Shown here in pieces: positions 15,609 through 40,652 of a DNA stretch of 48,593 nt (the first letter of the stretch is position 1; the number at the start of each line of letters is the position of its first letter). The stretch is from Candidatus Acetothermia bacterium. GTDB lineage: Bacteria; Bipolaricaulota; Bipolaricaulia; UBA7950. Below the pieces are notes generated by a model. The model saw only the letters and a program-made list of their open reading frames with translations, was not told where the DNA came from and made no database searches. The DNA is taken from contig JAJHSB010000036.1 in the NCBI GenBank assembly GCA_022684035.1, positions 1 through 48,593 of the forward strand, in the 5' to 3' direction. A program made the translations under genes and the position numbers.

Positions 15609-16619
15609 TCAACTTCTCTTCTCTTTTCTTAGCCTTTCCCGGAAAAACTCGACTGTCCGCTTGAGGCCCTCGCGCAGATCGACCACGGGCTTCCAGGCAA
15701 GCTCCGTTTCAGCTTTAGACACATCTAAGAAGATCCTTCTTAGCTCACCCTTCCTCTCAGGGCCATAGCTCGCACTTCCTCGAAAACCGATGATCTCCTG
15801 CAGATGAGCGAAAAGCTCGTTCACCGAGGTACCAATGCCTGTACCGATGTTATAGGCGCGATCGTTGAGTGAGTGTGCTAAAGATGCTGTCTCTAATTGC
15901 TTTATCGCTAACAGGTTTGCTTGGGCCACATCTTCCACGAAGACGTAATCCCGGAGTTGTTTGCCGTCACCGAAGATGGTCGGCGTCTCACCGGCCAGCA
16001 TCTTTCCAACGAAGATCGCCACCACCCCGGCCTCGCCGTGCGGGTCCTGCCGCGGACCGTAAACGTTGCCATAGCGCAGGGCGATGTAGGGAAGACCGTG
16101 AATAGACTGGTAGTAGTAGAGATAGTATTCAGAGCAGAGTTTACTCACCCCGTAGGGAGAGAACGGACCTTTGGGATAGGTTTCGTTCACCGGCAACTGA
16201 TCAGGCTCCCCATAAACGACCCCACCGGAGGAGACAAAGATAACCCCCTTTGTCCGGTATCGCACACAATTCTCCAGAAGATTCAGTAATCCAGTGATGT
16301 TCACCCGTGCATCTTCCCTGGGATCGGCGACTGACTTACGCACGTCGATTTGGGCCGCATGGTGGCAGACCCATTCAATTCGGTCTTTGGGGGATGTAGT
16401 AGATTCATCCCTAATTACTATACCCCCCGAGGCAAAGATCTTCTCCAGCTTTGGATCACAGATATCCATCCGGTAAAATTGGGCTTTGGGATTGAGGTTC
16501 TCCTCCTTACCGCTAGAGAGATCGTCAACTACGACCACTCGCTCTCCTTGGGCGATCAAAGCATCGACAACATGGGAGCCGATGAATCCAGCTCCGCCAG
16601 TGACCAAGATTCTGCTCAT
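15609..16619 (-). CDS. NAD-dependent sugar-nucleotide epimerase/dehydratase (UDP-glucose 4-epimerase-like)
   Basis: Extended short-chain dehydrogenase acting on nucleotide sugars for surface polysaccharide. 336 residues; the Rossmann motif TGGAGFIGSH lies at residues 7-16, the acidic NAD-binding residues follow (VVVDDLSSG), the catalytic Ser is in VSSGGVVYGE and the catalytic Tyr-Lys pair is YGVSK near residue 167. RYGNVYGPRQDPHGEAGV near residue 200 is typical of GalE-like epimerases. The exact sugar (glucose, glucuronate, N-acetyl forms) is not decidable. The gene stands alone. A palindrome (CAATCAGC at 15561 with GCTGATTG at 15590) lies just beyond its stop. Confidence 0.82.
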   Translation of the reverse strand: MSRILVTGGAGFIGSHVVDALIAQGERVVVVDDLSSGKEENLNPKAQFYRMDICDPKLEKIFASGGIVIRDESTTSPKDRIEWVCHHAAQIDVRKSVADPREDARVNITGLLNLLENCVRYRTKGVIFVSSGGVVYGEPDQLPVNETYPKGPFSPYGVSKLCSEYYLYYYQSIHGLPYIALRYGNVYGPRQDPHGEAGVVAIFVGKMLAGETPTIFGDGKQLRDYVFVEDVAQANLLAIKQLETASLAHSLNDRAYNIGTGIGTSVNELFAHLQEIIGFRGSASYGPERKGELRRIFLDVSKAETELAWKPVVDLREGLKRTVEFFRERLRKEKRS

Positions 16620-17409
16620 ATCAGAGACTCCTTATGGTGAAAAATTATCAGCTAAAGTTACGACCTGTTCGCTGCTGAGTGCTACTCTTCATCGCTTGCC
16701 CGCTGCTATTTTGTGGCCTCTTGCGCAATCACTCTCTGGCTGGGCAAGAATTACTGCTTCTGCGTGTGTAGGCAGAGAGGAAAGTCCATCCTTTCTCGTT
16801 CTGTCTCGCCGGGTGGGCGGGACAGCAACATTACAATCTGCTCGGCAATTGAACCCCACGTTTTAGTCTTAGCTCGCTAGATGACGATGAATTAATTCCG
16901 TCTTAAGGCAAAAGTCTATCGGCTCACCCTCTCCATTCAAGTTATCAGGTTCACGATTCGGAAAGACGTTCGTAGTGCGTAGTTCATGGTCCGTAGTTTT
17001 TCCCTAATTCTTCTTCTGTCATTACGAGTCTACGAAGCAATCCCGAAGGTTGCGAGTCTGTGAAGCAATCTCGTTAGCAGAGACACATGCTCCTGACTCT
17101 TGACTCCTGTCTTCTGATTCGAGATTGCCACGAGTTCTACGAACTCTCGCAATGACAAGAAAAAGAAGCTGCAGAGGAAACGGTTCGTCCCTGTGAAGAC
17201 AGGGATTGTTCGCCTTATATTCTTCATATCCGTTGCGATATAGTGATGCATCCGCAAATGGCAGCACGTATTCGTCTGGCCTGTGCTAACCGTACAGACA
17301 GACGGAAAGAAAAGGAGCTCGGAATACTCCTCTTTCCCGTCATTGCTTCGCTGACTCCTCGCATTGCTCGGAGTTTCGGCTCACATCGCTCCTCATAATG
17401 ACAGTAATC
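16620..17409. other. Gene-free, repeat-rich interval with an RNase P-like motif
   Basis: No supported protein gene in 790 bp. On the plus strand 16660-16935 has strong secondary structure: CTTGCCC/GGGCAAG around 16694-16748, a 10-bp hairpin (CTGTCTCGCC with GGCGGGACAG, 16801-16825), and the string GAGAGGAAAGTCC at 16774-16786, like conserved region I of bacterial RNase P RNA. From 16970 on come dispersed repeats: GTAGTGCGTAGTTCATGG words, TCATTACGAGTCTACGAAGC, GCTCCTGACTCTTGACTCC, and two TCATTGC-type palindromes to 17402. The end of the Wood-Ljungdahl operon transcript must lie here, but I see no hairpin followed by a clear T tract. Confidence 0.5.
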
Positions 17410-18780
17410 TTAGGAGCCCGATAACTCCAGTAATTGCTTTTGTCTCTTCAATAGTGCTGGGATTCCACTCGCTTCGCGGGTGCCGACGATGATCTGCCAA
17501 TCCGGTAATTCTTCTTCCAACTCGCCTTTGATCTGCGCCACATAGCCGGGAATGATGAGGTTGCGGTGATTTATTTTATCCGCGATTCCTGAGCGCTTGA
17601 TATAGGATGCAATGGTATCAGCAGCAAACTTACCGGTTGACCAAGCCGCCAAAACGCAAAGTCCCTCTGTATTCTGAATGCATAGAAAAGACGGCACTTT
17701 GCTTGCCTCCATCTCTGAAGAGACAGCGAAATAAGTTAAGGCAAAGTTAGTAGTGAGAATAACCGGCGCGGCTGCATCCGGAGAGTTTATCTCATAAACT
17801 TTCTCCTCGACTGTCATCGGACGACGCGGATCAGTATAGATATTCATCCGTTCGACCAGCAGAGGGAAGAGCGAATGACGCTTGATATTACGTACGACGA
17901 TGATCCCGGCGTATTTAGCGATCAAGCTTGCGGCGAGCAAAACTTCTTCTTGTGCCTCTTTAGCAAGAAAACAGGGGAAAGTGATCGTGGGGAAGCCGAG
18001 TAGCCGAAAATCTTTTTTAAGTGCGGCTCGCCGGATGAGCGTTTGGTCACGTATCGCCTCAATGAGATTCTTTGAGCTCGGATCGAGCACTATTTGCTCA
18101 AACCCCGCAGACCGCAATTTCTCAACTAATGGCACAAGTTCTTCGATACCCTCTGCTTGCACGCCGATGGGTGTCGCTCTCTCGTTGAGTCCAGCGATCG
18201 CATCGTCAATATTGGCGGCTGTTATCGGGTAGAGAAGTGGCTTTCGGTCATTGCATATCTCCTGCGCTGCAAGTAGGTGATCGAATTGCTTCGCAATCAA
18301 GACGATTCCGGCTGTTGCTGCTTGGGAGAGCACTTTCTCGACCAGCGCGATAAATTTCGCTTTCTCTCCTGAAAGAGATTGAAGCGCTAGAAGCTCTGCT
18401 CGCAGTTCCATTCCCACGCGCTTGAATTGCAGTTCTTGGAGCTTATCTATCTTTGCGGTGATTTCTGCATCCGTCTCGGTGTCAGAGATGAGAAGGGCAA
18501 GGCCAGGAGGGTGAAAGAATGTCTTTTCATGCCTGAACATGACCTCTTCTTCACCGATATTTAGTGCCTGTTCTCCAGTACCGATCACAACCAATTTCAC
18601 CGGTGGCGTTAACAGATTCTCTATCTCTTCTCTCAAGCTTTGAGCGATGTACGGACAGGCATCGGGTTTTAACTTGCCTGTAGCCAGTTTCATCGCAAAC
18701 CCAAAGCAAGTCGGCAAGCCACATTCTTTACAGTTTGTGCCCGGCAGTCTCTTCTGAATATCAGTTCCCTTTATCGGCAT
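17410..18780 (-). CDS. acsC: Corrinoid iron-sulfur protein large subunit (AcsC/CdhE)
   Basis: Large (gamma) subunit of the corrinoid iron-sulfur protein, which carries the methyl group from methyl-tetrahydrofolate to the acetyl-CoA synthase. The N-terminal [4Fe-4S] domain is plain: Cys 17, 20, 25 and 42 in GTNCKECGLPTCFGFAMK and DACP. A TIM-barrel middle and the C-terminal cobamide-binding region follow; at 456 residues the length matches the family (about 445). Last gene of the operon, 104 bp after cdhC, with a repeat block between. Start ATG 18780 follows AAAGGAG. Its partner is AcsD encoded four genes upstream. Confidence 0.93.
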   Translation of the reverse strand: MPIKGTDIQKRLPGTNCKECGLPTCFGFAMKLATGKLKPDACPYIAQSLREEIENLLTPPVKLVVIGTGEQALNIGEEEVMFRHEKTFFHPPGLALLISDTETDAEITAKIDKLQELQFKRVGMELRAELLALQSLSGEKAKFIALVEKVLSQAATAGIVLIAKQFDHLLAAQEICNDRKPLLYPITAANIDDAIAGLNERATPIGVQAEGIEELVPLVEKLRSAGFEQIVLDPSSKNLIEAIRDQTLIRRAALKKDFRLLGFPTITFPCFLAKEAQEEVLLAASLIAKYAGIIVVRNIKRHSLFPLLVERMNIYTDPRRPMTVEEKVYEINSPDAAAPVILTTNFALTYFAVSSEMEASKVPSFLCIQNTEGLCVLAAWSTGKFAADTIASYIKRSGIADKINHRNLIIPGYVAQIKGELEEELPDWQIIVGTREASGIPALLKRQKQLLELSGS

Positions 18781-18798
18781 AACTCGCTCCTTTAATTA

Positions 18799-18881
18799 GC
18801 AAATAGTGAATAGCAAATAGTGTCTGGTGGCTGGTGACTGGAGGAAACGAGCCACGAGTCACGAACCACGAGCCACCAGTC
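18799..18881. repeat. Word-like repeat between cdhC and acsC
   Basis: AATAGTGAATAGCAAATAGTG followed by GGTGGCTGGTGACTGG and ACGAGCCACGAGTCACGAAC-type words. The same vocabulary recurs at 20120-20178 and 20748-20840 in the other spacers of this operon, on either strand. Confidence 0.75.
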
Positions 18882-18884
18882 TTT

Positions 18885-20096
18885 TTATGAAAACTCTCCC
18901 GCCATTACCGGGTGCTCAACGCGAGCAAGAAATTCGGCGAGTGCATCAACATCGTTAACATCTTCTTCCGTAGCTATCTTGTCAAATATCTCCGGAGGGA
19001 TGGAATCCTTCACTCTCTCTTTTACCTTTTTCGGCATCCATACTACCCGCCGCAAGCCGCCGTCTCCTTGCAGGAACTTGGGCGATCGTAGATACTCCAC
19101 TCCCATTCCGACATATCCTTCTACTTGCTTGCCGCCACTTAATTCGCCGGCCATTGTCGAGAAGGGAATACCGATGACAGACGCTCCCTCGAAATCTCTT
19201 GGCAAGATGCCGATCCCATCAACTTCAGGGATATAGAAAGCAATAGACTCAAAGCAGCCACAGGAAGTATGTGGATGATCAAAGAGACTGTGCAAACAAA
19301 AGGTATCGTTGGTCCCCATTGACCGCTCTGCTACCACTTCATTAACCCCGCTATAAACTATTTTTTCTGTATCCAGAAGTTCGCCTTTTTCTACTACGAA
19401 CTGTGGGCCATAAGGGTCGATCTTGGAAGCAGCCCGACCGTCAAACCAGCTTATCGCACCACAAAGCGATACACGTTCCGGTGTGACAATGCAGACATGG
19501 GTCGGAGCAAAACTCTGGCAGAGCGTGCAGCCGTAGAATTCATCGACCGCCTCCTCGGTCAGCCCTCTTACTCGCTCATCCCGCGCTTTGTAGACATCTA
19601 ACGCAGAAGGCAAGAAATTTTCCACTTTTTGCGCGTCGGTGATAAATGTGACCGCTACTCTTTCGATGATCGGCAACTCGGATGTATAAAGGTATATAAG
19701 TACCTTTCCTATCTCATCTAACGAGGTGAGCCCTTGCTTGACCGCGTCTTTGCTTATTCTTAGCCAGATATCGTTCCGTTGTGCCATATGCACAAATCCC
19801 TCGATATAGTTGCAGTACTGGTGGATTCGTCGCTCAAAGACCGGTTCCATATCTGGATCCAACTCGGTTCCAGCTACTTCGACAATGAGTCCCAGAGGAT
19901 AGCTGCCCCCCTCTGCCAGATCTTTGATATCAGGTCCGATAATTTCAATCTTGCCATGCTCGACTTCATCCATTTTCTTAATCGTTGCCAATTCGGCTTT
20001 TGCTTTTACCTTTGGCCCACCGAATTCAATAAAAAGATCATCCTTTCGGATTCGCTCTCCTTCAAATTGTGGCCCTATTGCGATCTTAAATTCCAT
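18885..20096 (-). CDS. cdhC: Acetyl-CoA synthase, short archaeal-type beta subunit (CdhC)
   Basis: Catalytic acetyl-CoA synthase: joins a methyl group, CO and CoA at the Ni-Fe A-cluster. All cluster ligands are visible: Cys 190, 193, 202 and 212 spaced C-x2-C-x8-C-x9-C (YGCTLCQSFAPTHVC, then SLCG), and the CGC pair at 279-281 (HTSCGCFES). At 403 residues it lacks the large N-terminal CODH-binding domain of bacterial AcsB (about 730 residues), so it has the archaeal CdhC build. Consistent with that, the neighbouring genes code for archaeal-type CdhA and CdhB. Start ATG 20096 follows GGGAGG. The separate N-terminal domain is not encoded elsewhere in the window. Confidence 0.93.
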   Translation of the reverse strand: MEFKIAIGPQFEGERIRKDDLFIEFGGPKVKAKAELATIKKMDEVEHGKIEIIGPDIKDLAEGGSYPLGLIVEVAGTELDPDMEPVFERRIHQYCNYIEGFVHMAQRNDIWLRISKDAVKQGLTSLDEIGKVLIYLYTSELPIIERVAVTFITDAQKVENFLPSALDVYKARDERVRGLTEEAVDEFYGCTLCQSFAPTHVCIVTPERVSLCGAISWFDGRAASKIDPYGPQFVVEKGELLDTEKIVYSGVNEVVAERSMGTNDTFCLHSLFDHPHTSCGCFESIAFYIPEVDGIGILPRDFEGASVIGIPFSTMAGELSGGKQVEGYVGMGVEYLRSPKFLQGDGGLRRVVWMPKKVKERVKDSIPPEIFDKIATEEDVNDVDALAEFLARVEHPVMAGEFS

Positions 20097-20119
20097 TGTG
20101 CTTCCTCCCTATATTAAAG

Positions 20120-20178
20120 TTGCTCGTTGCTCGTGGCTCATTTTCACCAGCCACGCGTCACGAGCCACCAGCCACGAA
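20120..20178. repeat. Word-like repeat between cdhB and cdhC
   Basis: TGCTCGTTGCTCGTGGCTC and CACGAGCCACCAGCCACGAA; same word family as 18799-18881 and 20748-20840. It sits exactly in the 82-bp spacer. Confidence 0.75.
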
Positions 20179-20721
20179 CTACCTATCCCCTATTAGATTA
20201 GCAATTAAGCTAGCAAAATATTCCTGCCATTTCTCATCTTTACGGATGACCGGAAGAGCAAAATCAGCATTGGGATGGCTGAAACGGCAAAGAGCCATGG
20301 TCTTAAGATGAGGAGCAAAATGTTTAAGCGTGGCAAGTCCCCGCTCCGCAAGGTCGCAGCGTACTCCTGAGAAGACGATCAAGTCATGGTTTCCCTCTTT
20401 GTTTACTCCCTGCCACTCTGGATCTTTCAAGTGATTGACGATCTCAATGATATCATATGAGCTGTTAGGTTGGACTCCAAACTCTTCCATCTTTTTTTGC
20501 ACATGAGCGGTAGCGCAAATGGGCAGATTTCCTGCTTTAGCCAGGTCCAAGCAGTATTTCAGAAACAATTTATCACCAATCTTACGATCAACTGTATCCG
20601 GCCCCAAAATATAGAGCGGTCGAGTAGCTTTTTTGATCAAGCCGGCAAACTGTACCGGATCTTCTATAATCCGTGCTGTCTTTGTGCCGGTCAAAATATT
20701 TACATCCCAATACGGTTTCAT
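20179..20721 (-). CDS. cdhB: CODH/ACS epsilon subunit (CdhB)
   Basis: Small subunit that accompanies CdhA in archaeal acetyl-CoA decarbonylase/synthase complexes; thought to have a role in structure or electron transfer. The 180-residue protein begins MKPYWDVNILTGTKTARIIE and has the nucleotide-fold-like stretch RPLYILGPDTVDRKIGD near residue 36, which I recognise as the CdhB family. It lies between cdhA and cdhC, the archaeal order cdhA-cdhB-cdhC. Start ATG 20721 follows GGAGGAG. Classical bacterial acs clusters do not have this subunit, so its presence supports the archaeal-type assignment of the whole core. Confidence 0.88.
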   Translation of the reverse strand: MKPYWDVNILTGTKTARIIEDPVQFAGLIKKATRPLYILGPDTVDRKIGDKLFLKYCLDLAKAGNLPICATAHVQKKMEEFGVQPNSSYDIIEIVNHLKDPEWQGVNKEGNHDLIVFSGVRCDLAERGLATLKHFAPHLKTMALCRFSHPNADFALPVIRKDEKWQEYFASLIANLIGDR

Positions 20722-20747
20722 TTCACTCCTCCAGTTACCTGGTTACA

Positions 20748-20840
20748 ATTCGTGTCTCGTGACTCGTGTCTCGTGACTCGTGTCTCGTTTTCCTCCAGTC
20801 ACCAGCCACGAGCCACTAGTAACGAGCCACCAGTCACCAA
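20748..20840. repeat. Word-like repeat between cdhA and cdhB
   Basis: Three tandem copies of about GTGTCTCGTGACTC followed by CACCAGCCACGAGCCACTAG and related words. Third member of the operon-spacer family. Confidence 0.8.
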
Positions 20841-20843
20841 ATA

Positions 20844-20860
20844 GCACCGCAAGGCGGTGC
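20844..20860 (-). other. Hairpin directly after cdhA
   Basis: GCACCGC-AAG-GCGGTGC, a perfect 7-bp stem with a 3-base loop, begins 2 bp after the cdhA stop codon. No strong T tract follows (minus strand TATTTGG), so it may set mRNA stability or partial termination and thereby subunit ratios. Confidence 0.5.
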
Positions 20861-20862
20861 GG

Positions 20863-23187
20863 CTACTTAATATCAGCAATATTCGCCTTAGTTGGGTAGG
20901 TATTGATCAGCGTTGGCAGTCCTACTTGCTGGCGCGGCTTCCAATCGATCTCTTTAAGATATTCCATTACTTCGCGTTTAAAGAACATCGGCACATCAGT
21001 AGGTTTTCTGATAAATAGATGGAGGTCATCCGGGAGTCCCTCACCGATATATTTCTTGTGCAAAGCGATGTAATGATTCAATTTTATCTGGCGACCTACC
21101 GGGGTATCATTCCGTCTGATACAGTACTTGGCAATAGAGACCATGGCGCGCTCCTTGGATTCAATTACAATTGCCAGATGCTCTGGTGCCGGTTCAACAT
21201 ATTCCTCCGTCATCTTCTCAGTCCGACCATCCATTATATTCCAATCGTCTTCTTCCTTTCTGCTCAAATATAGCCTCCTATATTTCGCCGAATGTGGACC
21301 GAGCACGACTGGAATGCCCCAGCGATTACACCCGGTGCCAATTGCCAGCGCTTTCTGTGAATAGGCTCCCCAAGCCACTCCACAGGCGCCGACCCGGTTT
21401 ATAATATAGTCAGCTATACATTCATAATTGGCTCTGCCCGGCAGTTTGGCAAAGATATTGGCAACTTTTATCGCAGCGCCAACGATGTGGGAGTTGGCAA
21501 CACATGAGCCGACATTCAATACCCCGCCGGCTTCAAACCCAGGGGGAAACTTTTCCCAGATCGTCTTACCTTCCTTGTCTTTGACCATGCCGGCAGCCAT
21601 AGCTGCACATCCAGAGGCACATACAATATACTTTCTCCTGGCAAACTCATCCATCATATCGGCGACTTCTTCGTCACCTTTGGGGTAATTAGAACAGCCG
21701 ACAAACGCGACTATCCCAGGAATAGTTCCTAAAACGATCGGTGAGCCGACTTGCCGGATCTCTACATCATGAATCGGTCCGCGACCACTACGAACATTAT
21801 ATCTCTCTTTCGTTGCTACTGCCTGCATAATCTTGACGATGGGAATACTTTGAGGACATTTTTGTTCGCATTTACCGCAGGTGAAACACCGCTTGAATGT
21901 TTCGCTCAACATCGCGATGTCGTTGGCAGCGAATTGCTTAATCGCTTTACCGATCGACAGCATATTAGGACAGGCTTGGCTGCACAAGTCACAGGCGATA
22001 CAGTCCTTTGCCAATTCAATCGCCGCTTCTGTATCGATAAATCCCTTCTTGCGGTTAGGAGCAAGAACTACAGCTACTTTCGCTGCTACTGCCCCGGCTT
22101 TCTCCGGGTTGAGTATCAAAACTTGTCGCTTTTCTTCCGACACCAATCTGACTATCTCATCTATTTCTTTCTCGGTGACATCTTCCAGGCCGTAGCTTAT
22201 CTTATCAGAGGTGGCGATCAATGCGGCTCCGGCTTTACGCGCCTCTTCCGGCACGTCTGGTCGGACGCATTGTTCATCGGTCATCACAACATCAGCGATG
22301 CCGCACCGAATAAAGAAGAGTTGTTTACCGAGATGTCCGACTATCTTCGCCTTATCAGAGTACCTAGCTACGTCATGAGCAGTACAACATATACCGCAGA
22401 CTTCAACTTTATCCTCCAGGTCATTATCGCGTAAATAATCGATCATTGAGTTGACCGAGGCAGCATTATGACCGATGGCTAAAACTACTGGCTTAGTTTT
22501 ATCAATTGCACCCCAACCCAGCTCCACCAGTGGTGTATCGGCAATAGATGTTGGATACCCATAGCCGACGATCTGAGCGATATCGGTTAATTCCAGTGCT
22601 ACATGGTCAAGCATTCCAGCATGGAGAGCCTTATTCTCAAAATCAAGATTATTTCCTTCCTGGCCGGTGTGGGTTGAGGAGACAAGATGAATAAGTCCCC
22701 GCTCTACATATTCAACCGCTGTTCTCAAGTCGCCTAAGGTTTCAGGCTTTAGCCCCATAACGGTCCTGATTATCGGTGCTTCTACATCTACTTGCATGCC
22801 TAAATCTATCTTATAGTCTTCGCCATATTTCTCAATCAAATGATCGATTAAGTGGCGTCCGTGTGCGCCATGACAAGCAAGTCCCATACAGCACTGCATA
22901 AGGACCCATCTTGCCTGGTGTGTAGCAATGTCAATTCCACAGGCGCCTTTTTTCCCGGAAGTCAAATCGCATTTACCATAGGTACAATTACAGCACAGGT
23001 CACAAAAAGGAGCATAAAATGGCTTGTAGGTTTTAAGGAGACGCATGCTCCAATTGCGCAAATCAGGGAGCTGGGGCAAGGGTGTTGGACCGACAGGTTC
23101 CCATGTATCCTCTCCTTTTATGATATTTAATGTATCTACTTGATTTGTTATGATATTTAATGTCTCTGCCTTATTCTTCTTTGACAT
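20863..23187 (-). CDS. cdhA: Carbon monoxide dehydrogenase alpha subunit, archaeal type (CdhA)
   Basis: Reversible CO/CO2 oxidoreductase that supplies CO to the acetyl-CoA synthase. The 774-residue chain has the N-terminal Cys cluster (Cys 62, 65, 66, 68, 73, 83) for the B/D-type [4Fe-4S] centres, the C-cluster region with GHNAAS (His 240), CGICC near 264-268, FIRCG (Cys 295) and DEQC (Cys 307), and two ferredoxin motifs CIACDLCSQACP (396-406) and CFTCGKCEQKCP (434-444) inserted in the middle. That insert and the length are the hallmarks of archaeal CdhA; bacterial AcsA/CooS is about 640-680 residues and lacks it. The gene starts 1 bp after the acsD stop, so translation is coupled. Partner genes cdhB and cdhC follow. 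Confidence 0.95.
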   Translation of the reverse strand: MSKKNKAETLNIITNQVDTLNIIKGEDTWEPVGPTPLPQLPDLRNWSMRLLKTYKPFYAPFCDLCCNCTYGKCDLTSGKKGACGIDIATHQARWVLMQCCMGLACHGAHGRHLIDHLIEKYGEDYKIDLGMQVDVEAPIIRTVMGLKPETLGDLRTAVEYVERGLIHLVSSTHTGQEGNNLDFENKALHAGMLDHVALELTDIAQIVGYGYPTSIADTPLVELGWGAIDKTKPVVLAIGHNAASVNSMIDYLRDNDLEDKVEVCGICCTAHDVARYSDKAKIVGHLGKQLFFIRCGIADVVMTDEQCVRPDVPEEARKAGAALIATSDKISYGLEDVTEKEIDEIVRLVSEEKRQVLILNPEKAGAVAAKVAVVLAPNRKKGFIDTEAAIELAKDCIACDLCSQACPNMLSIGKAIKQFAANDIAMLSETFKRCFTCGKCEQKCPQSIPIVKIMQAVATKERYNVRSGRGPIHDVEIRQVGSPIVLGTIPGIVAFVGCSNYPKGDEEVADMMDEFARRKYIVCASGCAAMAAGMVKDKEGKTIWEKFPPGFEAGGVLNVGSCVANSHIVGAAIKVANIFAKLPGRANYECIADYIINRVGACGVAWGAYSQKALAIGTGCNRWGIPVVLGPHSAKYRRLYLSRKEEDDWNIMDGRTEKMTEEYVEPAPEHLAIVIESKERAMVSIAKYCIRRNDTPVGRQIKLNHYIALHKKYIGEGLPDDLHLFIRKPTDVPMFFKREVMEYLKEIDWKPRQQVGLPTLINTYPTKANIADIK

Positions 23188-23188
23188 A

Positions 23189-24103
23189 TTAGTTGGCCTC
23201 CACGTCTGTTAGATGCTTACTTAGTATCTGTTGTGTTAGTTTGTAAGTATGCGGACTCTTAAGAAGGACGATATTCGCCCCGGCCAGGATAAAGCAAAGT
23301 GCTGTTATCCCTTCCCAGAGAACGCCTTGAGTAATATCTTCTTTCGCCTCTTTTGTCTTCCAGCACTCTGCTCCGATATTGGCGATGATCGGCATCTGCA
23401 TCATCTTGTCATTATGAACAAGAGCAGCCAGCTTAATCCGCTCCATCACCGAGTAAGTATATTCCATCCCGTATCCCAATGCAGAGCTCAAGGGGTCAAT
23501 TACGATCTGATCCGCAGCAAGTCCTTCTTTTATCAGCATGATATTCAGCTGTTTTGCCGCATTGACATCGAGGGGTGTTTGGGCAATGACCCGCTGATCA
23601 TATGCCACGCAGGCAGCAGCGATCTCGCGGTAGTTCTCTTTTTTTGCCGGTCCGAGCAGCAAGCCTTTGCCGGCGCAAGTCGCGGCTATCTGAGGCAGTA
23701 GTATCTGGTCTTGCTCTGAGACGCCTGTCCCATAGATAATGATCGGTATGTCGACAGCTTTGATAACTTTGATCGCTCTTTTTGCCATCTCATCTATCGA
23801 GATGGCTGCTCCAGCAAATTGCAGTGCAATGATCTCTATTCCAAGTTCTTCGATATACTTTTTTGCCAAGTCGGCCGGCTCGCTCGGTAGATTGCTGAAG
23901 TCTCCCGCCTTCTCTTCTGTCCAGTCCGCTTGCTTTGTGATGCAGATCTCAAGCGCCAGTTTAGGAGGATTAGGAAGCACTCCTTCAAATGAATGGAAGG
24001 GGAGTGTATCTTCGCCGCCAATCCGTACAGAATTACCACCTGGTCCGAGAATTACTTCCTCTATCTTGCCGGAATAGATGTCAATCGCCGGTTGATATAC
24101 CAT
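23189..24103 (-). CDS. acsD: Corrinoid iron-sulfur protein small subunit (AcsD/CdhD)
   Basis: Small (delta) subunit of the corrinoid iron-sulfur protein, a TIM-barrel protein that pairs with AcsC and presents the cobamide. 304 residues, close to the bacterial length (about 310-325). Family stretches include MVYQPAIDIYSGKIEEVILG at the N terminus, IDPLSSALGYGMEYTYSVME near residue 203, and PIIANIGAECWKTKEA. The stop is 1 bp before the cdhA start with GGAGG inside the acsD end. Start ATG 24103 follows AAAGGAG. Acts in the cytoplasm with AcsE, AcsC and CdhC. Confidence 0.93.
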   Translation of the reverse strand: MVYQPAIDIYSGKIEEVILGPGGNSVRIGGEDTLPFHSFEGVLPNPPKLALEICITKQADWTEEKAGDFSNLPSEPADLAKKYIEELGIEIIALQFAGAAISIDEMAKRAIKVIKAVDIPIIIYGTGVSEQDQILLPQIAATCAGKGLLLGPAKKENYREIAAACVAYDQRVIAQTPLDVNAAKQLNIMLIKEGLAADQIVIDPLSSALGYGMEYTYSVMERIKLAALVHNDKMMQMPIIANIGAECWKTKEAKEDITQGVLWEGITALCFILAGANIVLLKSPHTYKLTQQILSKHLTDVEAN

Positions 24104-24143
24104 TCCTTTTCTCCTTTCTCTTCCGTAAGTAATCGGAAAGACT

Positions 24144-24310
24144 GACCACAGAGAGCCCAGAGAATGAGTTGATGTTCACAGTACAGAAAGGATTCGTAGT
24201 TCGTGGTTCGTAGTTCAGATTCAGAGTCCTGCCTCTTTCTTGACTTCTTTCTGGAACCCAATACCCAACACTCAAAACTTTCCGTTCCTCCTCTCCGCAC
24301 AGTGACCGCT
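24144..24310. repeat. Direct repeat copy 1 (spacer DUF166-acsD)
   Basis: About 165 bp from GACCACAGAGAGCCC to CAGTGACCGCT, strongly similar and in the same direction to 26085-26242. Shared words include GAGAATGAGTTGA, TTCGTAGTTCGT, CTTTCTGGA and ACTCAAAACTTTCCGT. It fills the 264-bp spacer between two operon genes. Confidence 0.8.
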
Positions 24311-24367
24311 GTGGTTGTCGTTTCATTTTGATATTTGATATTTGATATTTCATTGCCTGTCTTCTCT

Positions 24368-25066
24368 TCATCGATTGTTGATTGCTTTTATCGCTTCTGC
24401 CACTGCCTGTTTAATTGCTAATCCGGAGCGGTGCATCAGCGTATCGTTAAACTGGCGATCCATCACCATCGTTGCGTAACAGACATGCGCATGGTGGAGT
24501 AATCCTGCTTGAAAGTATGCATCCTTAACGGCGGTTCCAACCAGCTTTTCCGCGACAAACCGTGTGTTTCCGCACGGAGCGTCAGTCAAGACCGTTACCT
24601 GTTTTATTCTTTGCTGCTCTTGCTTCAGTTTCACGCGGGGCCTGCCGAATAGCTGCGCAAACTCTCTGATCAGCTCATTATCGCTATCCGTCTCAGTGAG
24701 AAGACAAAATGGGATAGGCATTACCATAGTCACATTCTTCTGCTCCAGTTTTCGCTTGATTTGGTTTGCCAGTCCAGGCGGCAGCCAACTACGGTTGGCC
24801 ACCGGAGCAAGGACTGCCGTGGCACCACTTAAGTCTACCATATCTGGAAGCAGTTCGGCAACACGCGAATCTTCAGCCAGTGATAATAATAAATCTGCTG
24901 TCGGCAACTGCTTTGGCAGCAGATTATTCAACGAATCCTCATTGATAACCGGCAAGGGATCAGGAAAGGAGTGGATCTTCAGTTTCCATTGCGGTGGCAT
25001 ATATGCTGTAATCGTCTTTACGATTCGGTTACCATATTTGCCCTGCAATATCATCAGTATTCGCAT
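24368..25066 (-). CDS. DUF166 family protein in Wood-Ljungdahl operon
   Basis: 232-residue protein of the DUF166 group, often labelled a thymidylate-synthase-like or Fe-S protein without good support. Visible features: MILQGKYGNRIVKTITAYMP at the N terminus, a middle region ATAVLAPVANRSWLPPGL, and a C-terminal block VLTDAPCGNTRFVAEKLVG with a conserved-looking Cys (about residue 166) and HHAHVCYATM with another. Two or more Cys with His could bind metal, but no ferredoxin pattern exists. It lies between acsE and acsD. DUF166 genes are known to me near CODH/ACS genes in several anaerobes, so a maturation or accessory role is likely but unproven. Confidence 0.65.
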   Translation of the reverse strand: MRILMILQGKYGNRIVKTITAYMPPQWKLKIHSFPDPLPVINEDSLNNLLPKQLPTADLLLSLAEDSRVAELLPDMVDLSGATAVLAPVANRSWLPPGLANQIKRKLEQKNVTMVMPIPFCLLTETDSDNELIREFAQLFGRPRVKLKQEQQRIKQVTVLTDAPCGNTRFVAEKLVGTAVKDAYFQAGLLHHAHVCYATMVMDRQFNDTLMHRSGLAIKQAVAEAIKAINNR

Positions 25067-25163
25067 ATATTCCCTTTGCCGGCCACCAGCCTGCCTGTCA
25101 TTGCGATCATGAGTAAAACGTGGCGGTCTGCTTTGTAATGACTCCTTGCATCTTGCTTGTTTC

Positions 25164-26045
25164 CTAATCTAATTCCAACCAGGCATGGGAATAGAGTACC
25201 TTTCCAGTCAAAACGCGAGCTGTCTTGGCATAGTCACGCTCTCGTGCAGAGAAACGCGCAAGATCGATATCTTCTTCGGCTATTACTTTACGAACCACTT
25301 CAGTAATCTTCGGTAGTTCGCCCCGATTAAGTCTGATAAGTTCGTTGTTAAAAGAATCAACGATCGCTGAGTATTGACTGAAATGCTCAAGTATTATCAT
25401 ATAAGTGCAGGTGAGAATACTTTTAAGATGTGCCGGTGCTCCACTCACCAAATTTGATAATCCTACTGTTGATTTAACCCCAGGCGCCATATCAGAGAGC
25501 ATCACGATAAATTCGACATAATCAACTACTGCTTGCTGATTAACACCGACAGGTAACAGGATCGGATCGACCCAGATATTTTCATTGGGAATGCCCAGTT
25601 CATTAGCAATTTCAATCGTTTCCATGATGGACTCAGCTCGACCGGCAGCATCGGACGGAATCCCCTCATCATTGAGCACAGAGATGATCACCTCGGCAGA
25701 GTACTTGACTGCCAACGGCAGCATCTTCTCTATACTCTCTTGCTTGCCGGAAGCGGAGTTTATTAATACTTTGTTTCGGCAGACGGCCAAACCGGCTTCC
25801 ATTGCTATGGGATTGGTAGTATCGAGCGATAACGGTAGTTTTGTTACTGCCTGAATTATCTTTACCAGCCACTCCATCTGCTCATCGCCGTTCTTTCGTG
25901 CCGGGCCAAGGTTTAAATCAAGGTAATCGACCCCTGCTTTAGTCTGCGCAATGGCTAAATTCTGAATGGGCTGAGGATCTTTATCTTTCAACGCTTGCGC
26001 AGTTATCTTTGACATGATATTTATATTTTCACCGATGAGAATCAT
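25164..26045 (-). CDS. acsE: Methyltetrahydrofolate:corrinoid iron-sulfur protein methyltransferase
   Basis: Transfers the methyl group from methyl-tetrahydrofolate to the cob(I)amide of AcsC/AcsD. 293-residue pterin-binding TIM barrel: GENINIM near the N terminus, VDYLDLNLGP (residues about 39-48), LSLDTTNP with the pterin-binding Asp, VDPILLPVG, and TVGLSNLVSGAP near residue 195, all AcsE-type motifs. It is about 30 residues longer than the Moorella enzyme, through a C-terminal tail. Its presence shows a folate rather than methanopterin methyl carrier is likely, in contrast with the archaeal-type CODH/ACS downstream. Start ATG 26045 follows AAAAGGAG. Confidence 0.92.
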   Translation of the reverse strand: MILIGENINIMSKITAQALKDKDPQPIQNLAIAQTKAGVDYLDLNLGPARKNGDEQMEWLVKIIQAVTKLPLSLDTTNPIAMEAGLAVCRNKVLINSASGKQESIEKMLPLAVKYSAEVIISVLNDEGIPSDAAGRAESIMETIEIANELGIPNENIWVDPILLPVGVNQQAVVDYVEFIVMLSDMAPGVKSTVGLSNLVSGAPAHLKSILTCTYMIILEHFSQYSAIVDSFNNELIRLNRGELPKITEVVRKVIAEEDIDLARFSARERDYAKTARVLTGKVLYSHAWLELD

Positions 26046-26084
26046 CTTTTCTCCTTTTCACATTTTAAGTATTGTGAAAAATTA

Positions 26085-26242
26085 AACCACAGAAATTAAA
26101 TCACAGAGAATGAGTTGAGGTTCACGGTTCAGAAAGGGTTCGTAGTTCGTAGTTTAGATCCAGCGTTCTGTCTCCCTCTTGACCTCTTTCTGGAGCCCAA
26201 AACTCAAAACTTTCCGTCCCTCCTCTCACCTCAGTGACCGCT
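26085..26242. repeat. Direct repeat copy 2 (spacer cooC-acsE)
   Basis: Partner of 24144-24310, about 80 percent alike by eye and in the same orientation. It occupies nearly the whole spacer between cooC and acsE. Confidence 0.8.
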
Positions 26243-26250
26243 ATGATTTT

Positions 26251-27051
26251 TCATATCCGTTCATGCTTGTTCATAATACCACAGTTTATCGCTTCTTTAA
26301 CGATCAGTCGTCTCATCAGACTGTTGATCGACCTTACAGCCGGCGAATCCTCCCGCAGTTCGGTCAGTGATTGACTGCGAAGACTGTAATCGATGATTGC
26401 GTCGTCTTCAGGGATCGTTTGGATCAGTTCCAGCTCTTGTTGCTCAATCTCTTCTCGCACCACCGGATTTAAATCTGCACGCAGCCGCTCAACCAGTAAA
26501 TAGATCGACTTAACAGTCAAATGGAGTTCTTTTACTAAATCCCGCAGAGCCCCGGCTGTCTTTACACCCCTGACAGTCGGATCAGAGACCAGCAGTAGAG
26601 CATCTATGTCCTGCGTTATCCTTCGTGACAGATGCTCCATCCCGGCTTCGTTATCGATGATGACGTACGGATAATTTTTCGCCAACATGTCGAGATACTG
26701 ACGCAATATCTGGTTGGGATAACAATAACATCCTTGCCCTTCCTGGCGCCCCATAACCAGCAGATCAACCTTCTTACCCTCAATTAGAATCTCGGCCAGC
26801 TTAGTCTGCAGATATTCATGTTTCGGAATGCTCGGAGGGAGATCCGCCAAATTCTCTCGGAATTCCGCCAGCGTAGTGCCGATCGAAGTAACCGGTGTCA
26901 ATCCGATTGCTTCACCTAAATTAGCGGTAGGATCAGCATCAACCGCAAGAATAGGACCATCAGTATTATTCTTTAAATGACCGATAATAAGTGCGGCAAC
27001 AGTAGTCTTGCCAGTGCCGCCTTTCCCCGCTACTGCAATTGTCAATCCCAT
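26251..27051 (-). CDS. cooC: CooC-type nickel-insertion ATPase, second copy
   Basis: P-loop ATPase of the MinD/ParA class that matures the Ni clusters of CODH or ACS. Deviant Walker A GKGGTGKTT at residues 9-17, Walker A' AVDADPTANLG (36-46), and the CxC motif GCYCY (Cys 108 and 110), the proposed metal-binding pair at the CooC dimer interface. The switch region IIDNEAGMEHLSRR is also family-typical. 266 residues, normal length. It follows the first cooC by 58 bp and comes before acsE. Two paralogues could serve CdhA and CdhC separately, which is inference. Confidence 0.88.
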   Translation of the reverse strand: MGLTIAVAGKGGTGKTTVAALIIGHLKNNTDGPILAVDADPTANLGEAIGLTPVTSIGTTLAEFRENLADLPPSIPKHEYLQTKLAEILIEGKKVDLLVMGRQEGQGCYCYPNQILRQYLDMLAKNYPYVIIDNEAGMEHLSRRITQDIDALLLVSDPTVRGVKTAGALRDLVKELHLTVKSIYLLVERLRADLNPVVREEIEQQELELIQTIPEDDAIIDYSLRSQSLTELREDSPAVRSINSLMRRLIVKEAINCGIMNKHERI

Positions 27052-27109
27052 CGGCTTATTCTTCCTGGACTCAAGTTTTAGGTCTTAACCTTTTCGTATA
27101 GTCTCTAAT

Positions 27110-27883
27110 TTAGGCGCCAAATTCTCTAATTATGGATGCCTTAATACGTGCAACATCTGTGATTACCTTCGCATCGCTGTCAAAAAGAGGTCGGCCATTA
27201 ATATCTGCTTCGCGTATGTGTATACTATCCGAGACAATGCCCAGTATTTTTATCGGCAATAGTGCTGCAGTTAACCGTTCCTCATCCTCTGCGCTACGTA
27301 TCCGATTACCAACGGCCTGAACATGCTTGATGCCGACGCTCGTTGCCAGCTCTCTAATTTTATGAGCTGTTTCAATACTCCGCTTCCCAGGATCGGCTAC
27401 GATGATTAACAGATCTACTGCCGCTGCTGTCCCACGGCTTAAATGTTCTATTCCTGCCTCCATATCCACGATGATCACTTCGTTCCGCTTGACCAGCAGA
27501 TAGCTGAGCAGTGCCTTTAAGAATGCATTCTCCGCACAGAAACAGCCGCTGGCAACAGAGCGAAAGCCGCCCATCACCATTAACTTAATGCCATTATGGG
27601 AGAGAGCATATTTGTCGGGTATATCGACTACATAAGGGTTCAAGTTAAAATATACGCCTATCGCACCTGCCTTGGCGCCAGTACGTTCTTCGACTAAATC
27701 TTTCATCGCAACGATAGGGATGATATCGTGTGGATCAGGAAAGTCTAAACTGGCGGCTAAATTAGCAACTGGGTCAGCATCGATCGCTAAAACAGAGTAG
27801 CCATCACGTTGAAATAAACTAGCAAGCAGGGCGGCTATCGTTGTTTTACCTACTCCGCCTTTGCCGGCAATGGCAAGTTTCAT
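27110..27883 (-). CDS. cooC: CooC-type nickel-insertion ATPase, first copy
   Basis: First gene of the Wood-Ljungdahl operon. MinD/ParA-type ATPase with GKGGVGKTT at residues 7-15, AIDADPVANLA (33-43), CxC motif GCFCA (Cys 114 and 116) and VDMEAGIEHLSRG. 257 residues. Its ATG at 27883 follows AGAGAGGAA, about 120 nt downstream of the predicted transcription start. The two cooC proteins differ through most of their length, so the duplication is old rather than recent. Confidence 0.88.
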   Translation of the reverse strand: MKLAIAGKGGVGKTTIAALLASLFQRDGYSVLAIDADPVANLAASLDFPDPHDIIPIVAMKDLVEERTGAKAGAIGVYFNLNPYVVDIPDKYALSHNGIKLMVMGGFRSVASGCFCAENAFLKALLSYLLVKRNEVIIVDMEAGIEHLSRGTAAAVDLLIIVADPGKRSIETAHKIRELATSVGIKHVQAVGNRIRSAEDEERLTAALLPIKILGIVSDSIHIREADINGRPLFDSDAKVITDVARIKASIIREFGA

Positions 27884-28009
27884 ATATTCCTCTCTTCTGT
27901 TCTTGCGTGACTAGTAGCTTCACCCGCGCCACGCCTATATTAGCGCTTCGCTTTCAATAAAGTGATGATTCGCTAAAAGCTCTCATCCTTGTATAAAAGT
28001 TTATTATAG

Positions 28010-28037
28010 ATTATAGTCGGTAAAATCTGGCTGTCAA
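28010..28037 (-). promoter_or_regulatory. Promoter of the Wood-Ljungdahl operon
   Basis: Perfect TTGACA (28037-28032) and TATAAT (28015-28010) on the minus strand, 16 bp apart. The leader of about 120 nt contains a GCGTG/CACGC pair that could form a stem and AGCGAAGCGCT. No activator site is obvious. Strong, possibly constitutive. Confidence 0.8.
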
Positions 28038-28104
28038 GCTGGCGAGTTGTCTATCACAAGATGGTGGCTTTTACCCACACGTAAGACCGTAGCCTTCTTT
28101 TTCT

Positions 28105-28445
28105 TGTCATTGCGAGAGTTCGGAGAACTCGTGGCAATCTCAAAGAGATAATTCTCGTTTAGATACTAAAATCTGAAGTCTTGCGCAAAATGGGAAGGAA
28201 TTGAAATCACAAACTCCAAACACCAATTTCCAAACAAATTTCAATGACCAATCACCAAAATCTCAAACAGAAAAGCCGGAGTATTTTCCTCGATTGTTGA
28301 CAAATCGCTTATAGAAGTTTGGTTATTGGGATTTGGTTATTGTTTGGAAATTGAGATTTGGTCATTGGGATTTCCGGCTTTTGTCCGGGTTAGGGGCAAA
28401 ACAAACTCTGTAGGATTATAAGCAACGGGATTGCTTCGCAGACTC
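28105..28445 (+). repeat. Inverted arm A (341 bp), partner of 32219-32579
   Basis: Nearly identical to the reverse complement of arm B (about 95 percent by eye), from TGTCATTGCGAGAGTTCG to TTGCTTCGCAGACTC. The arm is itself quasi-palindromic: CAATTTCCAAACAA on one side and TTGTTTGGAAATTG on the other pair over 14 bp, which gives a MITE-like hairpin. Compared with arm B it lacks a 22-bp GC-rich insert. Confidence 0.92.
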
Positions 28446-28607
28446 CATTAGACTTTAATAGTTATTTGGTTCTTCTCCCAAAAGTGTAGTTATTCACAGG
28501 AGGAATAGCTTTTTGAAACCTTAGAGTTGAGAAGGGCATCCGTCTTTCCTGTATAATTTATACTGTATATAACCCAAGTACAGACAAAAATACAGGGAGG
28601 AGACGGA

Positions 28608-30608: not shown

Positions 30609-31916
30609 CTAAAAATCTTGCAGCAGGTCTTCCAGCGTCGGAAAGCCGATCTCTTGTAATTCGTACCGGATACGTGTTACAGGAACTTTGAACTGCAACA
30701 GCCGCGCCAGATTTATCGGTGTGCCGATGACTACTACATCACACTCAACCTGATCGACTGTCTGCTGCAGATCGGCAATCTGATTCCGGCTGTATCCCAT
30801 TGCCGGCAGCAAGGTTCCGATCTCTGGATATTGGTGGTAAACCTCTTTTATCGATTCGACCGCATATGGTCGCGGATCGATCAATTCAGCTGCTCCCAGC
30901 CGCTGCGCAGCGATCGTACCGGCGCCAAACTCCATTTCACCGTGAGTCAGCGTCGGGCCGTCTTCAATGACAAGGACTCGCCTTCCGCGGATGATCTCCG
31001 GCCGTTCAACGTAAATCGGTGATGCGGCTTCAACGATCGTTGCCTGAGGATTGATACGTTGTATATTCTCCCGCACAAATTGAATCTCCTCTATCGCTGC
31101 GGTGTCAATTTTGTTGATGATCGCGATGTCGGCTTGACGTAGATTTACTCCACTGGGGTAATAGAGAAGTTCATGGCCAGCGCGGTGAGGGTCAAATACT
31201 ACAATTGACAGATCGGCATGGTAGAATGAGAAGTCGTTATTCCCACCATCCCAGATAATGACATCGGCCTCTTGTTCAGCCTGACGCAAAATCTTTTCGT
31301 AATCTACTCCGGCATAGACGATTATTCCACGGTCAATATGCGGTTCGTATTCCTCTCGTTCTTCAATGGTACAGTTATAGCGGTCGAGATCGTCGTAAGA
31401 TTGATACCGCTGCCATTCCTGAGCAACTAAGTCTCCATAAGGCATTGGGTGGCGAATAACAACCACCTGCTTCCCTTTTGCCGCTAAAATATCGCAGACA
31501 CGGCGAGTAGTCTGGCTCTTGCCTGCCCCGGTTCGTATCGCTGTAATCGAGATCAATTGTTTTTTCGGCTTGATCCTCGTCGATGCTGTTCCCATCAACA
31601 TAAAATTCGCTCCTGCCGCATTGACAATGGCAGATCGTTCCATTACATATTGGTTGGAGACATCACTATAGCTGAAGACGACCAAGTCGACATGATGCTC
31701 TTTGATCAATTGAACCAAGTTCGCTTCTGCCTCGATCGGTATTCCCGCGGGATACAACTTGCCGGCCAACTGCGCTGGATAACATCTGCCATGAATATTC
31801 GGTATCTGATTGGCAGTAAAAGCAACTACGTTGTAGTTCTTATTACTACGGAAGGCGACGTTAAAGTTGTGAAAATCTCGACCTGCTGCTCCCATGATTA
31901 TTACATTTTGCTTCAT
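30609..31916 (-). CDS. Predicted GTPase, cyclic 2,3-diphosphoglycerate synthetase-like
   Basis: 435-residue P-loop protein of the CpgS-like/COG2403 group. N-terminal Rossmann-like part begins VIIMGAAGRDFHNFNVAFR; then a P-loop in ITAIRTGAGKSQTTRR (about residues 146-161), an IIWDGGNNDFSF motif and INKID as the guanine-specificity-like sequence. In Methanothermus the relative makes cyclic diphosphoglycerate; bacterial members have no proven role but are common in anaerobes with C1 metabolism. ATG 31916 is chosen because AGGAGG stands 12 bp before it; the longer frame from 31988 covers the promoter (TATAAT at 31961-31956). It is the one apparently intact non-mobile gene between the inverted arms. 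Confidence 0.75.
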   Translation of the reverse strand: MKQNVIIMGAAGRDFHNFNVAFRSNKNYNVVAFTANQIPNIHGRCYPAQLAGKLYPAGIPIEAEANLVQLIKEHHVDLVVFSYSDVSNQYVMERSAIVNAAGANFMLMGTASTRIKPKKQLISITAIRTGAGKSQTTRRVCDILAAKGKQVVVIRHPMPYGDLVAQEWQRYQSYDDLDRYNCTIEEREEYEPHIDRGIIVYAGVDYEKILRQAEQEADVIIWDGGNNDFSFYHADLSIVVFDPHRAGHELLYYPSGVNLRQADIAIINKIDTAAIEEIQFVRENIQRINPQATIVEAASPIYVERPEIIRGRRVLVIEDGPTLTHGEMEFGAGTIAAQRLGAAELIDPRPYAVESIKEVYHQYPEIGTLLPAMGYSRNQIADLQQTVDQVECDVVVIGTPINLARLLQFKVPVTRIRYELQEIGFPTLEDLLQDF

Positions 31917-31955
31917 CTTGTTTTTGTTCCTCCTAAGCCTTCTTATTGAACAAGA

Positions 31956-31961
31956 ATTATA
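31956..31961 (-). promoter_or_regulatory. Possible -10 box of the GTPase gene
   Basis: Perfect TATAAT on the minus strand, 40 bp before the start codon, without a recognisable -35 hexamer at the right distance. Low-to-moderate support. The rest of the 883-bp interval 31917-32799 holds dispersed repeats and arm B but no gene I can support. Confidence 0.35.
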
Positions 31962-32218
31962 CGCAATGATCTCCGATAAATAAAGCATACCGTGCCCGTA
32001 CTGAGAATCACGATCCGGTATTCGAATTCATCAAAACTATATCTATTTAAGGTATTTGGGATCGTCCCTGATCCAGAAAGATAAAGATCGGATCTTCCTT
32101 CCTTGTCGGGCTCAGGGACAAGCCAAAATACAGAGAAGGGGTTTACTTAACGAGGGGGACGGAGTTCACGGTTCGGGAATGGTTCCGAGTTCTCCCCTAA
32201 TTCGTCGTCTGTCAGTGT

Positions 32219-34252: not shown

Positions 34253-34933
34253 TTATTTAGCAGTATGCTTCGAGGTCCCGATCTCCACCATCTTTCCAGT
34301 GACGGTAAATCCCACCCGCTCACAGATGTTGGTCGCCCGGTCAGCGATGCGCTCCAGATTGTGGGCCACCCAGAGGAGCCGGGTAGCCCGGGTGATAGTG
34401 CGCGGGTCCTCCATCATGAAGAGGAGCAACTCGCGAAAGACCTGGTGGTACAGATTATCTACCTCATCGTCCTCAGCGGTTATTCTCATCGCTTCCTCAG
34501 AATCACGATTTATAAAAGTCTCTAGGCTGCGGTGGAGCATATCCCTCGCCTTTTCAGCCATGCGGGGGATATCGATCAGCGGCTTTAGTGGAGGCTCATC
34601 ACCGATCATCAAAGCGATCCGGGCAATCCCCTCAGCATAATCGCCCATCCGCTCCAGTTCGGTAATCAGGTTAAGCACAGTGATGATAATGCGCAGGTCG
34701 CTGGCCATTGGCTGCTGGGTAGCAATCATGGTGATACAGCTTTCCTCGATTTCAAACCGCCTCTGATTTATTTTCTGGTCATTCTCGATAACCTGTTCGG
34801 CTAACTGAAGGTCGCGGTTTTTTAAGGCCTCAACGGAGCGACCGATGGCCTCCTCCACCATACTGCCCATGATCAGAACTTCATCCTGAAGTTCCCTCAA
34901 TCTTTCATGATAGGCGGTCCTTAACTCGATCAC
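34253..34933 (-). CDS. phoU: Phosphate-transport regulator PhoU
   Basis: Links the Pst transporter to phosphate signalling and damps uptake when phosphate is plentiful. 226 residues, all-helical with two repeated PhoU domains; the metal-binding Glu/Asp-rich motifs are seen as ELERMGDYAEGIARIAL (about 92-108) and LERIADRATNICERVG near residue 200, each with the E-R-xx-D pattern. Last gene of pstSCAB-phoU, 32 bp after pstB. No phoR/phoB pair is in the window. Confidence 0.93.
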   Translation of the reverse strand: MIELRTAYHERLRELQDEVLIMGSMVEEAIGRSVEALKNRDLQLAEQVIENDQKINQRRFEIEESCITMIATQQPMASDLRIIITVLNLITELERMGDYAEGIARIALMIGDEPPLKPLIDIPRMAEKARDMLHRSLETFINRDSEEAMRITAEDDEVDNLYHQVFRELLLFMMEDPRTITRATRLLWVAHNLERIADRATNICERVGFTVTGKMVEIGTSKHTAK

Positions 34934-34965
34934 CTAAACCTCCATCTGTTAGTATAGACTCATCG

Positions 34966-35733: not shown

Positions 35734-35796
35734 AGACGACTTTCGTTCCTCCCGATTCTCCTCAATCTTACACTATCAATGGTAATTCGGTCAAGC

Positions 35797-37502: not shown

Positions 37503-37519
37503 GGTTTATCCTTTAGATT

Positions 37520-37562
37520 AAGAATAGAGGACTGCCGGCGCTTGCCGCAGCCCTCTATTCTT
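37520..37562 (-). terminator. Hairpin between pstS and pstC (attenuator or mRNA stabiliser)
   Basis: AAGAATAGAGG (37520-37530) pairs perfectly with CCTCTATTCTT (37552-37562), and the stem extends inwards with CTGC/GCAG. No T tract follows on the minus strand, so partial termination or processing is as likely as full termination. A second small stem (TGGAGT/ACTCCA) lies just after the pstS stop near 37607-37632. Confidence 0.55.
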
Positions 37563-40640: not shown

Positions 40641-40652
40641 GCTTAGAGCCTT

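Follow-up and report, generated by a model that had tools for sequence, protein, structure and literature searches.

A further hybrid CODH/ACS operon, with an archaeal-type core and a bacterial-type methyl branch, in a Candidatus Acetothermia genome

The operon and its subunits

We analysed a 48,593-nucleotide stretch of DNA, here called the window (contig JAJHSB010000036.1 of assembly GCA_022684035.1, assigned to Candidatus Acetothermia bacterium, phylum Bipolaricaulota, class Bipolaricaulia), which carries an operon for a carbon monoxide dehydrogenase/acetyl-CoA synthase (CODH/ACS). Nine intact open reading frames (ORFs) lie on the minus strand between 27883 and 17410, in the order cooC, cooC, acsE, DUF166, acsD, cdhA, cdhB, cdhC and acsC (Table 1), as a preliminary description of this DNA had set them out. 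Family calls were made with Pfam and NCBIfam profiles, and the curated NCBIfam cut-offs were passed by five of the six CODH/ACS subunits, namely CdhA (TIGR00314, 1078 bits against a cut-off of 781), CdhB (TIGR00315, 115 against 101), CdhC (TIGR00316, 601 against 356), AcsC (NF003195, 553 against 306) and AcsD (NF003376, 316 against 280), with AcsE as the exception. We consider it highly probable that the operon encodes a complete hybrid CODH/ACS, the sole acetyl-CoA synthase of the genome, a reading that draws on the genes themselves, the ligand and alcove residues, the trees, the absence of AcsAB and the presence of FTHFS and MTHFR.

The composition of the core claimed in the preliminary description was confirmed. 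CdhA contains two internal 4Fe-4S ferredoxin motifs, at C396/399/402/406 and C434/437/440/444, and in the alignment retains the cysteine and histidine residues common to hybrids and archaea; CdhB, above its family cut-off, is a separate protein; and the 403-residue CdhC lacks the N-terminal domain of AcsB, its first residues corresponding to the A2 domain, with A1 absent and all six A-cluster cysteines present (C190, C193, C202, C212, C279 and C281). In the CODH/ACS structure of Methanosarcina thermophila, residues Arg500, Leu504, Val507 and Phe601 of CdhA stand in for the A1 domain; Leu504, Val507 and Phe601 form a CO alcove together with Phe195 of CdhC, and Arg500 bonds Gly279 of CdhC (PMC11474084). 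The window equivalents are R478, S482, V485 and F579 of CdhA and F196 and G280 of CdhC. We found that R478 and F579 are conserved, one ambiguous letter aside, across 35 hybrid and 41 archaeal CdhA rows, and that F196 and G280 are invariant in 33 hybrid-type and 36 archaeal CdhC rows; the position of V485 is V or T among the hybrids. Structure prediction covered single chains. The AlphaFold model of CdhC (predicted local distance difference test score, pLDDT, 91.5) matches the A2-A3 part of AcsB in 3git_B, a truncated AcsB, with a Z of 52.5 over 401 residues at 2.1 Å; against 9c0s_E, to which it is 54% identical, the root-mean-square deviation is 8.2 Å, which we read as reflecting a different angle between the two CdhC domains. 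Because most of the interface and alcove residues are conserved and CdhC has this fold, docking of CdhC on CdhA in the archaeal mode would be the expected arrangement. Such docking of a short CdhC had been regarded in the preliminary description as not well described, but a 2024 structure from M. thermophila shows how an A1-less ACS docks on CODH (PMC11474084).

Table 1. Coordinates of the operon genes and associated features in the window
Feature	Position	Strand	Remarks
cooC-like Ni-insertion ATPase 1	27110..27883	-	257 aa; CbiA/ParA-type P-loop
cooC-like Ni-insertion ATPase 2	26251..27051	-	266 aa; CbiA/AAA_31
acsE, probable methyl-tetrahydrofolate:corrinoid protein methyltransferase	25164..26045	-	293 aa; Pterin_bind 1.2e-17
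DUF166 protein, probable maturation factor	24368..25066	-	232 aa; PF02593 152 bits
acsD, corrinoid protein small subunit, short bacterial-type form	23189..24103	-	304 aa; NF003376
cdhA, archaeal-type CODH catalytic subunit, E/F ferredoxin insert	20863..23187	-	774 aa; TIGR00314
cdhB, CODH epsilon subunit	20179..20721	-	180 aa; TIGR00315
cdhC, two-domain (A2-A3) acetyl-CoA synthase	18885..20096	-	403 aa; TIGR00316
acsC, corrinoid Fe-S protein large subunit	17410..18780	-	456 aa; NF003195
Candidate promoter TTGACA-16-TATAAT	28010..28037	-	consensus match only
Intergenic repeat copy 1, DUF166-acsD gap	24104..24367	.	75% identical over 218 nt to cooC-acsE gap
Intergenic repeat copy 2, cooC-acsE gap	26046..26250	.	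paired with copy 1

Relatives, phylogeny and genome context

A scan of one genome per species across 84,980 species yielded 80 named loci, and quick trees were built with support from the Shimodaira-Hasegawa-like approximate likelihood ratio test (SH-aLRT) only. The nearest relative is the NPL-UPA2 bacterium Unc8, which belongs to another phylum and has the identical nine-gene order, with identities from the first cooC to acsC of 72, 69, 72, 71, 64, 85, 85, 82 and 72% (64-85% for every gene). The two loci differ in their surroundings, with nuoEF-type genes ahead of the operon and fhs after it in Unc8, whereas the window has transposon remnants ahead and fhs lies on another contig. The other hybrids belong to Dehalococcoidia/Chloroflexota, Thermodesulfobacteriota, further records labelled Deltaproteobacteria, and Psychracetigena (Lithacetigenota).

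A Bacteria/Archaea hybrid CODH/ACS of six subunits was described by Suzuki 2018 in Unc8, Ca. Desulforudis audaxviator and Chloroflexi RBG_13_51_36, with the proposal of a single archaea-to-bacteria transfer followed by spread, and the Unc8 CODH/ACS genes were reported to be highly expressed in situ (PMC6305446). Merino 2020 reported the order acsED-cdhABC-acsC in a Hakuba actinobacterium (PMC7325909), and Nobu 2022 found that every putative homoacetogen of two serpentinite springs, Hakuba and The Cedars, has the hybrid, which was proposed to be adapted to conditions of high pH and low CO2 (PMC9751293). The gene order, which the preliminary description had also taken to be not well described, thus has published precedents, and the window operon is a further carrier of an already published type and not new as a kind. 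The Hakuba actinobacterium and the Hakuba and The Cedars homoacetogens share with the window genome this order, a solo cooS and the folate branch (PMC7325909, PMC9751293). The actinobacterium is likewise the sole hybrid carrier of its group and has a similar G+C content (48.5-49.2% there, 48.2% here), but a RubisCO-like protein reported there was not found in the window genome.

For CdhA, all the hybrids fall into a single clade (37 rows, SH-aLRT 100) that sits on a long stem next to the sampled archaea, with Unc8 as sister to the window (SH-aLRT 99). In the CdhC tree the window groups with archaea and hybrids, and a split at SH-aLRT 100 sets it apart from the AcsB proteins found in its class; in the AcsC tree, the root of which is not resolved, the hybrids again form one clade (33 rows, support 100) apart from the AcsC of AcsB-bearing relatives. 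These trees, with the family matches, agree with the earlier claim that an archaeal-type core and a bacterial-type methyl branch share one operon, CdhA standing with archaea and hybrids and CdhC outside the AcsB clade. They also indicate that the operon travels as a unit and did not come about through the grafting of CdhABC onto an acs operon already resident in this phylum. Since the archaeal sample consisted of the loci closest to the window CdhA, no donor lineage can be named. Compared with the bacterial AcsAB systems of Moorella, Carboxydothermus and its own class, in which those relatives that have the synthase possess a long AcsB (about 735-770 residues), the window operon shares the A2-A3 fold and the AcsC/D/E-type methyl branch but differs in that CdhC lacks A1, CdhA replaces AcsA and CdhC falls across the support-100 split.

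Searches of the whole genome revealed a single CdhC/AcsB-family match, the window CdhC, and no second CODH/ACS or acsAB set was found in the 92.6%-complete genome. The prismane-family matches were CdhA and one solo CooS (TIGR01702, 557 bits against 478), located on contig C72, where its neighbours are an ABC transporter and a cysE-like gene; it is the only AcsA/CooS-type protein, and no AcsA-type CODH linked to acs genes was found. FTHFS is encoded on contig C79 and MTHFR on contig C54, and no methenyl-tetrahydromethanopterin cyclohydrolase (Mch) was present in the genome, although control searches were positive; the pathway is therefore folate-type, as the preliminary description had implied. 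Firmicutes having both sets were reported by Nobu 2022 (PMC9751293). That the window operon is likewise accessory to a standard AcsABCDE set we regard as very improbable, given one CdhC/AcsB match in the entire genome and, for an AcsA-type partner, only a CooS unlinked to acs genes. Slightly less so, but still improbable, is misbinning of the operon contig (C21), which would make the lone hybrid of the phylum an artefact. CdhA exceeded its cut-off in only one of 100 genomes of the phylum examined, the window genome, and the glyA of the window shows 54% identity to its counterpart in the only genome of the same genus and 65% identity to that of a genome of another family. However, the tetranucleotide bias of the window shows a correlation of r 0.913 with that of a sample pooled from the other contigs (0.50-0.92 for the contigs among themselves, 0.78 for Unc8) and supports membership of the operon contig in the genome, the listed contamination is only 1.7%, and the folate-branch genes sit on other contigs of the genome and not on the operon contig.

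A 4.7-kb contig, G020:C128 (L024/L172), from the same order as the window genome, carries a hybrid-type acsC, then cooC, then a gene for a 275-residue protein that corresponds to just the A3 domain of AcsB and has CEC where the A-cluster motif is CGC. Its acsC groups with Dehalococcoidia AH-958-E16 at support 100. The locus may be a relic, or its contig may have been misbinned.

Proposed working of the complex and the missing CdhC tail

In the proposed scheme, the Ni-Fe-S C-cluster of CdhA2B2 would reduce CO2 to CO (or oxidise CO), the E/F ferredoxin clusters would be the entry point for electrons into CdhA, and the CO would reach the A-cluster of CdhC by way of a short channel that runs through Rossmann fold 2 of CdhA. 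Because it has no A1 domain, CdhC would dock straight onto CdhA as in M. thermophila. AcsE would transfer the methyl group of methyl-tetrahydrofolate to the AcsC/AcsD corrinoid protein, and CdhC would undock from CdhA, collect the methyl group from AcsC/AcsD, redock and complete acetyl-CoA. The CooC pair would insert nickel, and the DUF166 protein probably assists cluster assembly. The activity, the docking and these roles of CooC and DUF166 we infer. The direction cannot be read from sequence, and synthesis is most likely. The short CO channel is held to favour CO oxidation, with A1 possibly an acetogenic adaptation (PMC11474084), and a solo CooS is present in the same genome, so that the complex might run mainly in reverse or as a CO- or acetate-oxidising unit, in acetyl-CoA cleavage or life on CO; this appears unlikely, however, as hybrid operons occur in organisms interpreted as homoacetogens (PMC6305446, PMC9751293) and FTHFS and MTHFR are encoded in the window genome.

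Several points weigh against the reading of the operon as a complete hybrid CODH/ACS and the sole synthase of its genome. Pfam places AcsE among the pterin-binding methyltransferases, but its NCBIfam scores lie under the cut-offs (PRK07535, 207 against 259; the other, 170 against 370); it sits at the expected place in the operon and is 72% identical to the Unc8 gene, and an archaeal homologue was present in none of the loci compared. Leu504 of the alcove corresponds to Ser482 in the window CdhA, although this position varies in archaea and hybrids alike. The genome is a draft (1.56 Mb in 81 contigs, 92.6% complete, 1.7% contamination), the search for the C1 branch covered FTHFS, MTHFR and Mch, and the description of the complex draws on genes and single-chain models.

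Compared with the archaeal acetyl-CoA decarbonylase/synthase of M. thermophila (9c0q-9c0t), the window complex has the E/F clusters of CdhA, CdhB, an A1-less CdhC and most of the interface and alcove residues. It differs in that a probable AcsE is present, AcsD is about 100 residues shorter than CdhD and CdhC is tail-less, and the tetrahydromethanopterin C1 branch was not found, Mch being absent and FTHFS present. No residues follow the point at which the window CdhC ends. All 32 bacterial hybrid CdhC proteins end within 3 residues of this point, whereas 35 of 36 archaeal CdhC proteins extend 40-80 residues past it, the 36th being cut by a contig end; similarly, hybrid AcsD has about 302 residues against about 400-430 in archaeal CdhD. 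The archaeal tail is not visible in the 2024 structure and is suspected of aiding the swing of ACS between CODH and the corrinoid protein (PMC11474084). A search of CdhA, CdhB, CdhD and CdhE for a motif that 12 of the 36 archaeal tails contain did not find it. We infer that the archaeal CdhC tail and the long CdhD may pair up in the megacomplex and that both may have been left behind when the core was re-partnered. Tentatively, and with some doubt, we suggest that the hybrid CdhC may represent a third ACS architecture, a bare A2-A3 with neither A1 nor the archaeal tail, in which the tail would have been lost on re-partnering with short AcsC/AcsD, and that this module may have passed between phyla of CO2-poor alkaline waters and even returned to an archaeon of the ANME-1 group. 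If true, the archaeal tail would be an adaptor to the longer CdhD in the megacomplex. Its family-wide absence, together with the shorter AcsD, offers a direct test of its function.

The hybrid breaks the rule, used in PMC11474084 to explain A1, that acetogenic bacteria carry A1 and methanogens do not. As this joining of an archaeal CODH-ACS core to a bacterial folate methyl branch shows, the two are interchangeable modules of a very old pathway, and the window operon adds one more carrier lineage.

In all 15 hybrid CdhC proteins of one Chloroflexota/Syntrophaceae subclade (support 100; loci L069, L071, L077, L078, L080, L082, L084-L091 and L093), serine occupies the position of the window C202, a cubane-ligand cysteine. 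This position is the third cysteine of C-x2-C-x8-C-x9-C, a ligand of the [4Fe-4S] part of the A-cluster.

The DUF166 protein, an ANME-1 locus and flanking DNA

Besides the window, DUF166 is present in 14 of 37 hybrid loci, at two different operon places, and 8 of 43 archaeal loci have it close to cdh; its invariant cysteines are C120, C164 (in C164-G165) and C195. In the DUF166 model (pLDDT 95), VIA-align matched the N-terminal part to Rossmann-type folds (Z 8-9) and the C-terminal half, reaching residue 231, to IscU (Z 7.7-8.1, three entries). Comparison with Escherichia coli IscU by hhalign was not significant (probability 0.5%), though the register was sensible, with C164-G165 aligned on C63-G64 of IscU. 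A scaffold or maturation role is our hypothesis for this protein. Assignment to a known fold by Foldseek was rejected, the best match being to KaiC with an E value of 3e-3 and a poor TM score.

We also located the genes cooC-DUF166-cdhA-cdhB-cdhC, flanked by archaeal genes, in an anaerobic methanotrophic archaeon of the Methanophagales, ANME-1-LC from Lost City (JACGMN010000099.1, 8477-14154; L061). Its CdhC is of the tail-less bacterial kind, its cooC product is 63% identical to the second CooC of the window, and CdhD/CdhE-family proteins and Mch are encoded on other contigs. In the CdhABC tree ANME-1-LC is sister to the window plus Unc8, nested in the bacterial hybrids, and a bacteria-only clade without ANME-1-LC was rejected (delta lnL 135, p-AU, from the approximately unbiased test, 1.4e-9). 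The ANME-1-LC CdhABC thus looks like a bacterium-to-archaeon back-transfer of an originally archaeal core, to judge from this placement. The passages found in Chadwick 2022 and in the Lost City papers contain no mention of a bacterial-kind CdhABC in ANME-1-LC. What seems less described so far is the tail-less CdhC with short AcsD, the ANME-1-LC CdhABC, the clade with serine at C202 and the recurrence of DUF166.

The intergenic gaps of the window operon, from the first cooC to acsC, are 58, 205, 97, 264, 1, 141, 82 and 104 nt. A candidate sigma-70 promoter of perfect consensus lies about 126 nt ahead of the first cooC and is the sole 12/12 match in the 12 kb from 16600 to 28600. Heptamer-like repeats (ACGAGCC/ACGAGTC, TAGTTCG) occupy the gaps at 18843-18881, 20141-20196 and 20787-20848 and the two longer gaps listed in Table 1, and short pieces of the duplicated gap sequence of about 200 nt are also present on other contigs. 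No known RNA elements reached the gathering score in the window. The preliminary description had placed glyA nearby; the gene is present in the window (7515-8798), but because it lies on the opposite strand and about 9 kb from the operon, it does not belong to the operon and lends it no support as evidence.

Just upstream of the operon, the segment 28608-30601 contains mobile-element remnants, namely pieces of an ISL3-type transposase, a 23S rRNA intervening-sequence protein and a short ORF resembling a REP-associated (repetitive extragenic palindrome) transposase. It is followed at 30609-31988 by a gene for a 459-residue protein in which the stretch GAGKSQTTR resembles a P-loop and for which Pfam and NCBIfam gave no match at the thresholds applied, and at 34253-48049 by a dense phosphate-scavenging block comprising phoU-pstBACS, two alkaline phosphatases and two 5'-nucleotidases.

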